Assembly: GCA_946410125.1 (NCBI GenBank)
Contig: CAMJZF010000019.1
Coordinates: forward strand, 1-32,962
DNA: 32,962 nt
Direction: 5' to 3'
Source: an uncultured Prevotellaceae bacterium
GTDB lineage: Bacteria; Bacteroidota; Bacteroidia; Bacteroidales; Muribaculaceae
The notes beneath the pieces are model-generated. The model saw nothing but the letters and a program-made list of their open reading frames with translations. It had not been told where the DNA came from and made no database searches. Shown piece by piece: positions 9,412 through 14,947 of this stretch. The translations under genes and the position numbers were made by a program. Positions within the stretch are counted from its first letter, which is position 1. The number at the start of each line of letters is the position of its first letter.

Positions 9412-9999
9412 TTATTTTTTATTGTTTTTGTTGTCAACTAATTGCTGGAGGGCTGCCCAGCGAGGGTCGATGCTCGCTCCAGTGTCTTGGTCAGTGTCGC
9501 GATGGGTGGGAGGTTCACTAAAGTCCTCGTCGCTGTCGTAGCCGCGTGCCGCGTGCTCCTCAAGCCGGCCAAGCATGTCCTCGTTGCACTCTCCTGGGGA
9601 ATGAGTGTGCATCATTGGAATAGTGAGCAAGACGGTGTCGCGTACTATCGGCTCCAAGTCGAGTGTCCTCCACGACGACGGGATTATGAGCACGTTGTCG
9701 GTGCTGTCGTCCAGTGCGTCGCCCATTTTAACGGTAAGGTGGTAACTGGTATCTACAATGTGCTCCATATCGTCGAGGCAACGGTCGCATGGAATTGTAA
9801 TAACACCATTGCACACGAAGTCGAGCTCATAGATGCCCTCCTGGTGATGAGCCACGTTTAAGGCGACATCAACACTTCCGGAGCGCACTTCGGAGGCCTC
9901 GATTTCGTTGAAAAACTCGCCGTTCAGACGGTACTTAAATTCCTGTTTTCCAAACGGTAAGCTCGAAATGGATAACTTCATTTCAGCCAATGTTTCCAA
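9412..9999 (-). CDS. DUF177 (YceD-like) protein linked to 23S rRNA maturation
   Basis: 195 aa, within the family range. The core motif IPCDRCLDDME (about residues 89-99) holds the family's CxRC-type site, and an acidic C-terminal stretch (SDEDFSEPP) follows. YceD/DUF177 proteins are linked to 23S rRNA processing or accumulation and are encoded next to rpmF, as here. A promoter at 10022-10052 gives a short leader of about 15 nt to the ATG at 9999. A second in-frame ATG at 9981 (MKLSISSLPFG) fits the family alignment about as well, so the start is uncertain by six codons. Confidence 0.92.
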   Translation of the reverse strand: METLAEMKLSISSLPFGKQEFKYRLNGEFFNEIEASEVRSGSVDVALNVAHHQEGIYELDFVCNGVITIPCDRCLDDMEHIVDTSYHLTVKMGDALDDSTDNVLIIPSSWRTLDLEPIVRDTVLLTIPMMHTHSPGECNEDMLGRLEEHAARGYDSDEDFSEPPTHRDTDQDTGASIDPRWAALQQLVDNKNNKK

Positions 10000-10021
10000 C
10001 TATTTGTCGTTAAAATCGGCG

Positions 10022-10052
10022 CAAAGATAAGAACATTCTTGCTAATAATCAA
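10022..10052 (-). promoter_or_regulatory. Promoter of the DUF177-rpmF-fabH-era-der run
   Basis: Minus strand TTG (10052-10050), 20 bp, then TATCTTTG (10029-10022), an exact TAnnTTTG. No other convincing promoter was found between here and der. Confidence 0.75.
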
Positions 10053-10450
10053 CGTTTTTGCCACGTTTTTTGTTTTTTTAGCCAAAAAAATCCCTTTTGC
10101 CGTGATTGCTCATGCTGTTTTGGACTGGTGGTTTTCCCAAAAAAAATCGCGAGACCGAGGAATTTACCACAAATTCAACTCGGCCTCAATACTATTGCAA
10201 ATAAAAAGAGTAAATGAAGTTATTCTAAATCAAATCAATAAGCCTAACAGAAAAGTAAATTTTCTCAAACTTCTTTCGTTTGTAACTAAATTATATAACC
10301 AATCATTAAACCTAAATCATAATTGAGTGTAGTGTATATTTCTCAACCTATGGATTGCTTCTTTTTGCCCCCTAAACAACGCTGTGGGCAAAGTACTGCA
10401 TTAAGGTGCCGTGGTTTTAACGTTTTTTAATCTTTTTGACAGAGATTGTC
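10053..10450. other. AT-rich intergenic region without a supported gene
   Basis: About 400 bp between the ends of two minus-strand units. A 95-codon plus-strand frame exists but has no family features, no promoter and AT-driven composition. I see no strong terminator for the anti-sigma gene; only a weak GACA/TGTC stem is near its stop codon. Confidence 0.5.
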
Positions 10451-11818
10451 TTAAAAGTCAATGGAGAGGCCCATCTGCAGGTTGAAGTTGAGCGGATGCT
10501 CGTTGCGCTGGGTGTTGAGCGGCATGGTGGTGATGTAGTGCGAGAGCTTGGGCTGAACATAGATGCCTATGTTGCGCGTGAAGTTATATTGCAGTCCTGC
10601 GGTGGCATGAACTGACCATTGCAGGCGCTTGATGGTGAGGCTCTCGTTGTTGAACTTTGCCGAAACAACCCTCTCGACCAGGCCTTCGCCGCCTATAAAG
10701 GTGCTCAACCCCTTGTAGCGCCAGAAGTTCCATTTAACGCCAAAAGGAATGCCCACGAGCTTGATGCTCTGGTTGAACTCGGGGGCTCCGTTGTCGGGAG
10801 TTACGCCGCTCGACATTGACGTGAAGTTTAGTCCCACGTTGGCATAGAGGTTGCCCACAATGCGCTTGCTCAAGGTCACGCCCACGGTGATGGGCATGTG
10901 GTGGTGGTATTCATAGTTGACAGGTGGTGCCACGCTGGGTGCCATGCCCGGAGCCACGGGCGCAAGCATCATGCCGGAATTGCTTGGAGCAGGTGGCGAC
11001 AGCAATGCCGCCGCCGAGCCGTTGACGGTGCTGTTGCGGTCGCCAGAGATTAGCCCGTTGCCGTAGGCCGCCATTGCCATTGTGGGCTCTTCGTCGCGAT
11101 TGTGAATGGCCATCTTTTCTCTTGCGGCGCGCCTGGCATTGGCATCATAGACGAGGTATTGCTGATAGGTACTGTCGGTATAGGTGTTCCAAGGCTGCAT
11201 GGCGTCTTGGTTCATGGCGTTGTCATATTCGGCATACAGTTCTTCGAGGGCCTGCATGGTCTCTATGTCGTAGAAGTACTCGTCGGGGTTGAACTCGTTG
11301 GCTATAAGTTCTTCTTCCTCTTCTTCGGGATATAGCTGTAGTTGACTTTCATAGTCACGCACCTCTTCATAGTGTCTTGGCGAGTCCTTGGCGGGTGCGC
11401 CGCCCTTGGCCCTGATGACCTTGGGGGCAGGCTTGGCTTTAGCCGGCGATGGGGTGTTTTGTGCAATCAGCGTTGGCGATGTGGTGGTTGTGGCTTCCTC
11501 CACTGTTTCGCCACCGGGTTCCGTTGCCGGTTTCTCCACGGTGGCAGTGGGCGTTTGGGCTATTCTGTTAGGCTCTGGATTGTCATTGTCAATCAAGAAG
11601 AACCCCGTTGTCACAGCTATGGCAACGGCGGCAGCCGCGGCAATGCCTTTCCACATGCGTGGAGCGACAATGGCGCGCTTGGCAGGCACGGGAGCCTGCT
11701 CCTGCTCTGGCAGAGACTGGGCAATCGCCTGCCACATGCCCTCGGGAACGTCGCGTGTGGCTTGGTCGGCTTTTTGCTTTATAGCCTCAATCCAGTTGTT
11801 ATTTATGTCGTTGCTCAT
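10451..11818 (-). CDS. Putative dual-membrane anti-sigma factor with C-terminal outer-membrane barrel-like domain
   Basis: 455 aa. Residues 1-56 are a short cytoplasmic part (NNNWIEAIKQKADQA, PEGMWQAIAQSLPE) of the kind that binds sigma. Residues 57-76 are a single inner-membrane helix. Residues 77-304 are a low-complexity P, E, T and A-rich linker with an acidic EEEEEE patch. Residues 305-455 are alternating beta strands ending in LSIDF, with a terminal Phe typical of outer-membrane barrels. The gene overlaps the ECF sigma gene by 20 bp, strongly suggesting a sigma/anti-sigma pair. The whole would span inner membrane, periplasm and outer membrane. Dual membrane-spanning anti-sigma factors (Dma) are known from Bacteroides thetaiotaomicron, where they affect vesiculation; membership here is inferred from architecture only. 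Confidence 0.78.
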   Translation of the reverse strand: MSNDINNNWIEAIKQKADQATRDVPEGMWQAIAQSLPEQEQAPVPAKRAIVAPRMWKGIAAAAAVAIAVTTGFFLIDNDNPEPNRIAQTPTATVEKPATEPGGETVEEATTTTSPTLIAQNTPSPAKAKPAPKVIRAKGGAPAKDSPRHYEEVRDYESQLQLYPEEEEEELIANEFNPDEYFYDIETMQALEELYAEYDNAMNQDAMQPWNTYTDSTYQQYLVYDANARRAAREKMAIHNRDEEPTMAMAAYGNGLISGDRNSTVNGSAAALLSPPAPSNSGMMLAPVAPGMAPSVAPPVNYEYHHHMPITVGVTLSKRIVGNLYANVGLNFTSMSSGVTPDNGAPEFNQSIKLVGIPFGVKWNFWRYKGLSTFIGGEGLVERVVSAKFNNESLTIKRLQWSVHATAGLQYNFTRNIGIYVQPKLSHYITTMPLNTQRNEHPLNFNLQMGLSIDF

Positions 11819-12401
11819 AACGTGTTGTGTCGTATTCTTGTTCTTGATTCTTGATGCGTTGCTTAATCTTGCGTGCCAGCAGGGCTTTGGCTCTTGAAAG
11901 CTGTGACGACGATGTCTTCTCGCTGATGCCTAACTGCTGTGCAATTTCTTGATGAGAGAAACCATCTAAGCAGTAGAGGTTGAAAATCGTGCGATATCCG
12001 TCGGGAAGTTCGGCAATCATCTCCATGATGTCATTGATGCTTAGGCTTGCTACCTCTTGGGTGGTTTCTTCGTCAACATCGTCGGGCGGGTCGCTAAGGG
12101 TCTCGACGGGGACTGTAGTTGACTTGAGCCGCTTCTTGTGCCTTAGGAAATTAAGCGACTTGTTCACGGCAATGCGCGTCACCCAAGCTCTTAGTGAGCC
12201 GTCTCCTTCCCAGTGGAAACTGTGGATGGTGCCATAGATGGTGATGAAGGTGTCTTGCAGCACATCCTTGGCGTCATCGTCGTCTCCTACATATCGGAAG
12301 ATCGTTGCCATCAACTGAGGAGAGAACATGTCAAAGAGCGCATGCTGAGCACTGGCAATGCCCTGCTTGCAACCTTGGCTAATATCTCGTTCGCTCATCA
12401 T
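11799..12401 (-). CDS. ECF-type RNA polymerase sigma factor
   Basis: About 200 aa from the start chosen here. Region 2 (about residues 17-92: ALFDMFSPQLMATIFRYVG, DDAKDVLQDTFITIYG, LRAWVTRIAVNKSLNFLR) recognises the -10 element and binds core polymerase. Region 4 (about 135-185: LPDGYRTIFNLYCLDG, HQEIAQQLGISEKTSSSQLSRA) is the -35-binding helix-turn-helix. An in-frame ATG at 12422 exists, but it lies only about 9 bp from the -7 box at 12431-12438 and would leave almost no leader, so the ATG pair at 12401/12398 (MMSERD) is preferred. The 3' end overlaps the anti-sigma gene by 20 bp. Confidence 0.93.
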   Translation of the reverse strand: MMSERDISQGCKQGIASAQHALFDMFSPQLMATIFRYVGDDDDAKDVLQDTFITIYGTIHSFHWEGDGSLRAWVTRIAVNKSLNFLRHKKRLKSTTVPVETLSDPPDDVDEETTQEVASLSINDIMEMIAELPDGYRTIFNLYCLDGFSHQEIAQQLGISEKTSSSQLSRAKALLARKIKQRIKNQEQEYDTTRYEQRHK

Positions 12402-12428
12402 GATGTGGCAATTTCTAAACACATGAAG

Positions 12429-12446
12429 TGCAAAATTACTGCATCA
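12429..12446 (-). repeat. 18-bp direct repeat, copy at the sigma promoter
   Basis: Minus strand TGATGCAGTAATTTTGCA; it contains the -7 box. The second copy (12577-12594) differs at one base. Confidence 0.7.
12431..12438 (-). promoter_or_regulatory. -7 element of the ECF sigma gene
   Basis: Minus strand TAATTTTG, an exact TAnnTTTG. No good -33 was found, so activation or a different sigma may be needed. It sits in one copy of an 18-bp direct repeat (see 12429-12446 and 12577-12594). Confidence 0.55.
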
Positions 12447-12576
12447 TTTCAGGAAAAAAAATTTTTTTCTCAAAAAAACGTCTTGGGCGACATTGCTGTG
12501 AGCGTTAGGGTGGGGCTCTCGGGCGCTTGCCGGGCAGTCAATAATCAATGAACTTTCTTATCCTAAACACTCAACT

Positions 12577-12594
12577 TGCTAAATTACTGCATCA
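12577..12594 (-). repeat. 18-bp direct repeat, upstream copy
   Basis: Minus strand TGATGCAGTAATTTAGCA, 17 of 18 bases equal to the copy at 12429-12446 and in the same direction, 148 bp upstream of it. Confidence 0.7.
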
Positions 12595-12621
12595 AAATGG
12601 CAAAAAAATCACATTATAATT

Positions 12622-12660
12622 AAAAAATGGAGGCAAATAGGGTAGATACCTATTTGCCTC
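12622..12660 (-). terminator. Second terminator after the lipoprotein gene
   Basis: A 12-bp perfect stem (GAGGCAAATAGG/CCTATTTGCCTC, 12630-12641 with 12649-12660) with a 7-nt loop, followed on the minus strand by CATTTTTTAATT. It is the second of two terminators in tandem. Confidence 0.75.
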
Positions 12661-12677
12661 AGCTTTAACGGTAAAGC

Positions 12678-12716
12678 AAAAAAGAAAGCTGCTCTCCACC
12701 TCGTGGAAAACAGCTT
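12678..12716 (-). terminator. First terminator after the lipoprotein gene
   Basis: A 14-bp stem (12686-12699 with 12703-12716; AAGCTG and CCAC pair exactly, the middle uses G-U pairs) with a 3-nt loop, then TCTTTTTT on the minus strand. Confidence 0.8.
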
Positions 12717-12740
12717 CAAATCTTTTTAGCTTGTTGCAAA

Positions 12741-12995
12741 TTATTTTGCTACGCTATCAGTCTTCTGAGCCTCAGCAGCTGGATCTACTGCAGGAGCAGC
12801 AGCGTCAGCCTTTGCTTCCTCAGCGGGAGCGGCCTCAGCCTTTGTAGAATCGGCAGCAGTGCTGTCAACTTGCTCTACAGCAGCAGTTGTATCAACGGCA
12901 GTAGTGTCAGTTGAAGCAGAACCCTCTTGAGTACCAGTGCAAGAGAACATAGATACGCTAGCGATAACAGCAACTAATAAAACTAACTTTTTCAT
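12741..12995 (-). CDS. Small Ala/Thr/Asp-rich lipoprotein
   Basis: 84 aa. A type II signal peptide (MKKLVLLVAVIASVSMFSC) puts the lipidated Cys at residue 19, so the mature part is about 66 aa. It is low-complexity, made of A, D, T, E, S and K (STDTTAVDTTAAVEQVDST), and is likely disordered. No catalytic domain is present. Such short acidic lipoproteins are common in Bacteroidota and their role is unknown. It is a single-gene unit with its own promoter, a 68-nt leader and two terminators in tandem, which suggests strong expression. Confidence 0.85.
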   Translation of the reverse strand: MKKLVLLVAVIASVSMFSCTGTQEGSASTDTTAVDTTAAVEQVDSTAADSTKAEAAPAEEAKADAAAPAVDPAAEAQKTDSVAK

Positions 12996-13288: not shown

Positions 13289-14947
13289 TTAGCGATATAG
13301 GAAGCGTTTTATGCTGCGCTTTGGAGTTTTCTCAAATTCGTTGACCATAATCTCGATTTGAGAAATGCGTTCGTAGGGTGCCACAAGCTTATTAAGCTCT
13401 GACTTAACCGTTTCCATGTGACCGGGCAACTGGTCGCGGGTAATGCCGTCGCGGTCCATTGAGTCATAATCGGGATAGACGAGGGCAACGAGCTTGCGGT
13501 CACGCTCCACTACAAGACTTTCGCTCACATAAAGCATGTTGTTGAGCTTGGCTTCTATTTCCTCAGGATAGATGTTCTGGCCATTGGCTCCTAAAAGCAT
13601 GGTCTTGAGGCGACCGCGAATGAAGATTGTGCCGTCAGCACTCAGGGTGCCCATGTCGCCGGTGTGCAGCCAACCGTCCTCGTGCAGCACCTTGTCGGTT
13701 GCCTCGGTGTTGTGGAAGTATCCTTTCATCACGTTCTCTCCCTTGACGCAAATCTCCCCGGGAATGTTCTCGGGGTCATCGCTCAGAATCTTGCACTCCA
13801 TGATGCCGGGCAACACTCGGCCTGCGCTGTGAAGCACAAACTCACGCCACGGGGTGTGGCTCACCAGTGGTGCACACTCGGTCATGCCATAGCCCACGGT
13901 GAAGGGGAACTTGATTTTATATAGGAATTCTTCTACCTCGGCATTGAAGGGAGCGCCGCCAACGATTACTTCCTCAAACTGTCCGCCAAATGCCTCGATT
14001 AGGCGCTCGCGAATGCGGTCATAAATTTTTCGGTCAAGATAGGGGACTGCCAGTGCCCAGCGCAGTTTGGTCTTGCTAATCATGGGCACTATCATCTTGC
14101 TGTAGATTTTCTCAAGCACCAGTGGCACGCATATTACCAGGTGAGGCTTGATTTCCTGCATGGCTTTGACAATCACCTTGGGGGCGGGAATGCGGCCAAG
14201 CAGGGTGATGTGTGAACCCACGGCAAGCGGGGTAAGCATGTCGAAGGCGCAGCCATAGGCATGAGCCAGGGGCAGGAACGACACGCAGCGGGTGCCGCGG
14301 CGGTGCAGTTGCGAGTTGATGCCATACACGATGTTGCCCGCCAGGTTGTTGCCGGTGAGCATCACGCCCTTGCTGAAGCCGGTAGTGCCGCTGGTGTAGT
14401 TTATCTCCATGAGCTTGTCGTTATCGCGCTCTATATAATTAATACAGGCGGCGTTGAAGCCTTTGGGATAGGCTTCGGCCATAAGGCTGTCGATTTTCTC
14501 GAGCACTTCTCCGGCGGTTTCTTCTTCTTTCTGGGCAAGGAGCTTGCCGCTGTCGAGTGAGAACGCGGCGCGGATGTGGCGCATGTTGTCAAAGTCAAAC
14601 GACTCCCAGATGCTGTTGCTGGCAAAGAGTATCTCGGCCTCGCTGTGGTTGATGATGTGCTGGGCGTCGCGCGGATTGAATTCTTGAAGGATAGGGACTA
14701 TTACGGCTCCGTAGGTAATGGTGCCTATAAACACGATTACCCAGCTTGGCGTGTTCTTGCCAATGAGGGCAACGCGGTCGCCTGGCTTGATGCCACACTC
14801 TTTATATATAATGTGTAAGCGGGCAATGCGCTCGGCAAACTCACCGTATGTCAGGGTTTGCTTGGTGTTATAGTCACTCAGGGCTGGTAGTTCCCAGTTG
14901 TTGCGGAAGCTCTCCTCAAAAATCTTGATTGTGTTTTCCTTCATCAT
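13289..14947 (-). CDS. Long-chain acyl-CoA synthetase-like AMP-forming ligase
   Basis: 552 aa. It is an ANL-superfamily adenylating enzyme of the cytoplasm or inner membrane face that activates a carboxylic acid, most likely a fatty acid, with ATP and joins it to CoA. Seen: the P-loop-like YTSGTTGFSKG at 184-194, GYGMTE at 352-357, HTGD at 428-431, GRLK at 445-448, IYPEEIEAKL at 459-468 and a C-terminal TPKRSIKRF with the catalytic lysine region. The order matches FadD/AAE-type enzymes. Substrate chain length cannot be read. It has its own promoter and is divergent from glgB; the pairing may be positional only. Confidence 0.9.
   Translation of the reverse strand: MMKENTIKIFEESFRNNWELPALSDYNTKQTLTYGEFAERIARLHIIYKECGIKPGDRVALIGKNTPSWVIVFIGTITYGAVIVPILQEFNPRDAQHIINHSEAEILFASNSIWESFDFDNMRHIRAAFSLDSGKLLAQKEEETAGEVLEKIDSLMAEAYPKGFNAACINYIERDNDKLMEINYTSGTTGFSKGVMLTGNNLAGNIVYGINSQLHRRGTRCVSFLPLAHAYGCAFDMLTPLAVGSHITLLGRIPAPKVIVKAMQEIKPHLVICVPLVLEKIYSKMIVPMISKTKLRWALAVPYLDRKIYDRIRERLIEAFGGQFEEVIVGGAPFNAEVEEFLYKIKFPFTVGYGMTECAPLVSHTPWREFVLHSAGRVLPGIMECKILSDDPENIPGEICVKGENVMKGYFHNTEATDKVLHEDGWLHTGDMGTLSADGTIFIRGRLKTMLLGANGQNIYPEEIEAKLNNMLYVSESLVVERDRKLVALVYPDYDSMDRDGITRDQLPGHMETVKSELNKLVAPYERISQIEIMVNEFEKTPKRSIKRFLYR

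Follow-up and report, generated by a model that had tools for sequence, protein, structure and literature searches.

A Dma-type sigma/anti-sigma pair in a ruminant gut bacterium with a predicted promoter, regulon and small RNA arm

Anti-sigma factors of the Dma (dual membrane-spanning anti-sigma) class are described as combining an N-terminal head, one helix, a long tether and a C-terminal barrel, with an adjoining ECF sigma gene (PMC13088901). Further features of the class are binding of the sigma factor by the head, intrinsic disorder of the tether, a sigma factor of group ECF21, a location in both membranes and control of vesiculation. In the text of that report available to us, the outputs in Bacteroides thetaiotaomicron are nigD1 for Dma1 and PUL and operon genes for Dma2. 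The EcfO-Reo system has been proposed as a sensor of outer-membrane stress, with a regulon that includes nigD genes (PMC9308784, PMC13114119; available sections). The signal sensed by Dma factors and their action on the envelope are left open in the accessible parts of PMC13088901 and PMC13114119. A description of the regulatory arm of a Dma pair (promoter, regulon and sRNA) was not found in the literature searched.

The window, i.e. the whole 32,962-nt stretch of DNA that was analysed, comes from a ruminant gut bacterium, whose sensor appears to connect the cytoplasm with the outer membrane and whose putative sRNA may silence a cell-wall-cutting enzyme. For this system, comparative genomics yielded a predicted promoter sequence, a small set of likely regulon members and a candidate sRNA together with a specific mRNA as its predicted target.

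Gene pair, protein architecture and class membership

The ECF sigma factor gene (11799..12401, minus strand) encodes 200 amino acids, and its identity was upheld by Pfam matches to regions 2 and 4 (Sigma70_r2, 8.9e-15; Sigma70_r4_2, 5.7e-18). It is followed by the Dma-type anti-sigma gene (10451..11818, minus strand, 455 amino acids, coordinates including the stop codon), which was recognized by its open reading frame (ORF) and architecture. Both ORFs lie on the minus strand and begin with ATG, and the initially annotated overlap of 20 bp was confirmed. The overlap had been taken to support a functional pair. It is present in the window but not conserved among relatives: the junction is a 20-bp overlap in 6 of 17 window-type loci, an overlap of 4-11 bp in five and a gap of 5-14 bp in six. 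The exact overlap was therefore set aside as evidence, whereas adjacency is conserved, with a sigma-like ORF directly before the anti-sigma ORF, or forming one long ORF with it, in 42/42 loci (a count that holds two same-record pairs, L003/L015 and L010/L017). In L042, the sigma match lies within a long ORF on the other strand. In L010 (4001-5459), which shares its record with L017, a break within the linker divides the anti-sigma gene into two ORFs, owing either to gene disruption or to faulty assembly. The window also contains a small Ala-rich, lipoprotein-like ORF (12741-12995) that lies upstream of the sigma gene and gave no match in a Pfam search; some relatives have similar coding sequence ahead of their sigma gene.

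The 455-residue anti-sigma protein matched no family above the curated cut-off in Pfam and NCBIfam profile searches, and in respect of a sigma-binding N-terminal domain it gave only a sub-threshold NCBIfam anti-sigma match (28.1 bits, cut-off 100). The single hydrophobic helix, previously placed at residues 57-76, was recovered by the structure model (53-74) and by a hydropathy peak at about 58-76, and is given here as an inner-membrane helix of residues 53-76 (11591..11662, minus strand). Since the full-length model was poor (its mean pLDDT was 47.5, and Foldseek returned nothing at E 0.001), residues 246-455 (10454..11083, minus strand) were modelled alone. This structure prediction, which had been suggested as a check on the C-terminal part, gave an eight-stranded barrel whose closest known structure is OmpA. 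The barrel-like domain of the initial annotation thus stands as a prediction, and the terminal Phe is present in the sequence, but the domain does not start at residue 305: the first strand comprises residues 247-256, so that the barrel would begin near 247 and the linker would span residues ~77-245, i.e. ~170 instead of the 228 residues first proposed.

The linker had been described as disordered. Its residues 77-173 are variable (mean column identity of 0.31-0.40 among ten close orthologs) and unstructured in the model. The distal block of residues 174-245 (11084..11299, minus strand) is conserved, with mean column identities of 0.90 (174-210) and 0.81 (211-245) in the same orthologs, and was modelled as helices, at low confidence only. 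The initial annotation proposed that a single chain would connect the outer membrane to the sigma factor without the usual protease relay. These data bear on a different mode of action, in which a Dma-like protein is cut in its linker and the sigma factor is freed by ordinary regulated proteolysis, with no intact two-membrane chain during signalling. Other anti-sigma factors usually release their sigma factor by proteolysis, and the length and variability of residues 77-173 would suit a linker that is cleaved. Residues 174-245, however, show almost the same conservation as the barrel, an indication that the distal linker serves some function, and we regard cleavage as possible but on balance unlikely.

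As far as sequence and model allow a test, the window protein agrees with the Dma class throughout: it has a predicted C-terminal barrel, one helix behind an N-terminal head and an adjoining ECF sigma gene. On these grounds, the pair may be filed as a new member of the known Dma class, within which it belongs to a separate clade. The separate subgroup suggested earlier was supported by a tree of 39 barrel ends, in which the 13 window-type rows formed one clade (99/93), joined by two sister rows (100/99). Seven rows with a fused sigma region also grouped together (93/88); the deeper order of the tree is unsure owing to long branches, and L010, L015 and L042 were left out of it (L010 was also left out of alignment A1, and L056 of alignment A4). 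Fused arrangements occur in the same genus: in eight loci (L028, L029, L034, L035, L039, L040, L041 and L042), one long ORF encodes sigma region, helix and barrel-like end together, with the sigma region seeming to pass straight into the helix.

The window-type profile matched 80 of the 101 genomes of the genus. A full-length window-type Dma protein was present in 16 of them and, split into two ORFs, in a seventeenth (G010); these 17 genomes are referred to as carriers. Seven further genomes gave intermediate profile matches (E 3.7e-62 to 2.1e-51). Because the acyl-CoA synthetase of the other carriers and of the genome G067 is 91-94% identical to that of the window, as opposed to at most 84% in the rest, the carriers probably form one clade, as judged from sequence. 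The counts given below are therefore not independent, and the co-occurrence of motif, sRNA and Dma protein may reflect shared descent.

Promoter motif and predicted regulon

Two copies of a bipartite motif, GCAGTA-N14-GTGTTTA, lie upstream of the sigma gene as predicted promoters (proximal copy, 12416..12442; distal copy, 12564..12590; both minus strand), and a conserved element with this motif recurs upstream of the sigma gene among relatives. A third copy with one mismatch (TTGTTTA; 10373..10399, minus strand) precedes an sRNA-like block behind the anti-sigma gene, and the same variant precedes four carrier genes whose secreted products start with MNYKLL (MNYKLL genes). These are the only three sites at ≤2 mismatches in the whole window. 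In its own genome, a search for exact GCAGTA-(12 to 18)-GTGTTTA sites returned five, all with a gap of 14 (reversed control, 2). Extended with this gap to the 101 genus genomes, the search gave 77 sites in 20 genomes (reversed control, 5), with 71 sites in 17/17 carriers and six in 3/84 non-carriers (four in G067 and one each in G085 and G093). A simple promoter scan of the window was not above shuffles. At 12428-12442, the proximal motif overlaps a box resembling TAnnTTTG, the -7 element recognized by the primary sigma factor of Bacteroidota, so that two sigma factors may compete there.

Sequences were fetched for 59 of the 77 sites; the remaining 18, by position, all lie before the sigma gene. 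As classified by short text patterns, 54 of the 59 fetched sites precede one of six recurring units: the sRNA (14), an OmpA-like lipoprotein (13), a DUF4251 protein (12), the MNYKLL secreted protein (11), a protein with a sub-threshold MG2 match (3) or the sigma gene (1); something else follows the other five. Fisher values for the motif-site classes (1.4e-16 and 2.1e-17) were set aside, given the probable kinship of the carriers. The lipoprotein is of the YiaD type (204.9 bits, cut-off 175) and the DUF4251 assignment is likewise above its cut-off (77.7 bits versus 27), while family searches with the MNYKLL protein gave no match. Orthologs of the latter are present in 86/101 genus genomes. The motif stands before them at 0-2 mismatches in 16/16 orthologs from sRNA-bearing genomes (0, 1 and 2 mismatches in 11, 4 and 1 cases); in the other genomes, the best motif had 4-5 mismatches, equal to shuffle level, in 7/7 loci with a located start among 14 non-carrier loci. 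Single motif copies before other lipoprotein-like ORFs, in L159 (G067) and L141 (G011), are possible species-specific regulon members.

The motif could also be read by a different sigma factor or regulator shared by the clade, in which case the regulon would not belong to this pair. The probable common descent of the carriers would allow for this. Against it, the exact motif precedes the sigma gene in 15/17 carriers, as autoregulation would give, and lies behind the Dma gene in many; moreover, the outside genome G085 unites a sister-like Dma protein, the motif and the sRNA. Control by another regulator is considered rather improbable.

Conserved sRNA-like block and its predicted target

The anti-sigma stop codon is followed by the third motif, ~220 nt of sequence and, at its end, a terminator hairpin. 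The sRNA-like block was delimited to 10143..10366 (minus strand), directly behind the anti-sigma gene; both ends are estimates, the start having been set by analogy at roughly seven bases past the motif. It contains a near-invariant 46-nt core (10188..10233, minus strand) and the hairpin (10151..10187, minus strand; 16 pairs), after which a T run follows. In 15 aligned sequences, conservation reached 1.0 and 0.99 in the motif boxes, 0.60 in the spacer, 0.53 in the middle, 1.0 (rounded) in the core and 0.99 in the stem, so that the core stands out from its surroundings. The stem shows three two-sided changes, all in a single divergent row (L056). A simple terminator scan was not above shuffles and its matches did not include the proposed hairpin; the block as a whole folds no better than shuffles (z -0.71; 42/200 as good), and an Rfam search of 9900-12760 returned no family, only one sub-threshold plant miRNA match.

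A covariance model found one copy each in 19 of the 101 genus genomes, comprising the 17 carriers, G067 (72% complete; window-type Dma protein not found) and G085. Applied with strict filters to 393 genomes drawn from the order, a sample that seems to contain no other carriers, the model found the own genome only. The exact motif and the sRNA are both absent from six other genomes that have a sister-like Dma match. The counts thus document conservation within one clade and in a single genome outside it, rather than numerous independent gains. In G085 (L056), the gene order is sigma gene, sister-like Dma gene, motif, NigD-like gene (NigD_C 6.2e-07, above cut-off) and a variant of the sRNA, which possibly represents an older arrangement.

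Alternatively, the block may be nothing but the untranslated end of an mRNA together with its terminator. It does lie behind the Dma gene in 11/19 genomes, and behind the NigD-like gene in G085, and its overall folding is not unusual. But in 8/19 genomes the block is not beside the Dma gene, a motif of its own is situated 145-207 bases before the core at 0-2 mismatches in 18/19 copies, also away from the Dma gene, and the core is conserved above its surroundings. A mere mRNA end therefore appears quite unlikely, and the block is treated as a candidate sRNA. In the literature searched, no sRNA was found to be described as controlled by a Dma or ECF21 factor; the available text of PMC10861873 suggests the reverse direction, in that the sRNA BTnc353 may regulate BT_4721.

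When the reverse complement of the core was searched against its own genome with 16-mers, one of the sites was the start of an NlpC/P60 gene, where the match extends further. The search gave six sites (including the core itself) versus four in the control, and thus no excess of pairing sites. The protein matches NLPC_P60 (4.3e-25) and Spr/MepS chains (2.8e-19), and its family has a match in 99/101 genus genomes. Pairing was compared at the best 30 NlpC/P60 loci, 17 from sRNA-bearing genomes and 13 from others, with z-scores computed against single-base shuffles; G010 (gene cut by the contig end) and G085 (no match) fall outside the 17 testable of the 19 sRNA-bearing genomes. Pairing of the core with the gene start reached z -3.3 to -9.6 (-24.1 to -43.9 kcal/mol) in 16 of the 17 sRNA-bearing loci. 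The seventeenth, L234, scored 0.7 with the start chosen by the script and -6.0 with an inner start; re-choosing was applied to this failing locus alone, and the 13 loci without the sRNA, with starts as given by the script, ranged from -1.9 to 1.9 (0/13 pairing).

As controls, 22 gene starts of the window gave one value of -4.4 and otherwise -2.2 or weaker, and 48 starts behind motif sites gave -2.5 at best. The value of -4.4 belongs to the start of the acyl-CoA synthetase gene (window position 14947, minus strand). Of 30 loci for this gene, the 17 with a located start were compared: the 11 of carrier type scored from -3.4 to -0.8, the six others from -0.3 to 1.9. This trend is weaker but has the same direction, so that either base composition or a second target is possible.

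The complementarity might accordingly be a side effect of AT-rich start regions combined with common descent, as unrelated starts attain z-scores of -3 to -4 and pairing sites are not enriched in the own genome. Yet the same start codon is covered in all 17 testable sRNA-bearing genomes (L234 after re-choosing) and in none of the 13 others, and the starts behind motif sites reach -2.5 at best. Although it deserves some weight, this explanation is doubtful, and the NlpC/P60 mRNA is retained as the predicted target.

Proposed mechanism and comparison with known systems

The gene pair, the shared motif, the recurring genes behind it, the conserved block and the complementarity are all seen in the sequence. 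They are best explained by a Dma-type outer-membrane sensor with its own regulon plus an RNA arm, which we hold to be somewhat more probable than its failure; the barrel, the use of the promoters, the sRNA and the repression are predicted parts of this model. By analogy with the Dma class, the barrel would reside in the outer membrane and the cytoplasmic head would hold the sigma factor at the inner membrane. A disturbance of the outer membrane would then free the sigma factor, leading to transcription from GCAGTA-N14-GTGTTTA promoters. The predicted regulon comprises the pair's own operon, the YiaD/OmpA-like lipoprotein, the DUF4251 protein, the MNYKLL secreted protein and the sRNA, whose core is predicted to pair over the start codon of the MepS-like NlpC/P60 mRNA and block its translation. 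Under envelope stress, the joint effect could be that the outer membrane is tethered to the wall to a greater extent while the wall is cut less. If true, the Dma sensor class would be tied to the cell wall by a link open to direct testing.

Among the described systems, as far as the available text of the reports goes, Dma1/Das1 and Dma2/Das2 of B. thetaiotaomicron (PMC13088901) share with the window pair an N-terminal head, the helix, a long linker, the barrel (predicted for the window) and the adjoining ECF sigma gene. The window type adds the conserved linker block, the predicted promoter and the predicted sRNA, and is set apart from them by description, not by sequence. Dma3 of the same species, in the accessible part of that study, is comparable to the eight same-genus loci with sigma and barrel in a single ORF, whereas the window pair consists of two genes. 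EcfO-Reo of Phocaeicola vulgatus and Bacteroides fragilis resembles the window pair in having a large, periplasm-spanning anti-sigma factor with a barrel end (PMC9308784, PMC13114119; available sections). The NigD-like gene behind the Dma gene of G085 recalls the nigD regulon given for EcfO-Reo and Dma1 in these texts; neither the flanks of the window pair nor the classified motif sites of carriers yielded a NigD-like gene. Beyond this group, the Sigma-E-dependent sRNAs MicA, RybB and VrrA of Proteobacteria, as far as their consulted descriptions go, show features that are proposed for the window system as well: an envelope-stress sigma factor, a terminator-bearing sRNA and pairing at the start codon, the latter being predicted for the window. 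Targeting of omp mRNAs and dependence on Hfq are further traits of these sRNAs. No sequence kinship with them is claimed, and the target predicted here is the mRNA of a murein endopeptidase, not an omp mRNA. If true, the arrangement would represent convergence with the stress sRNAs of Proteobacteria.
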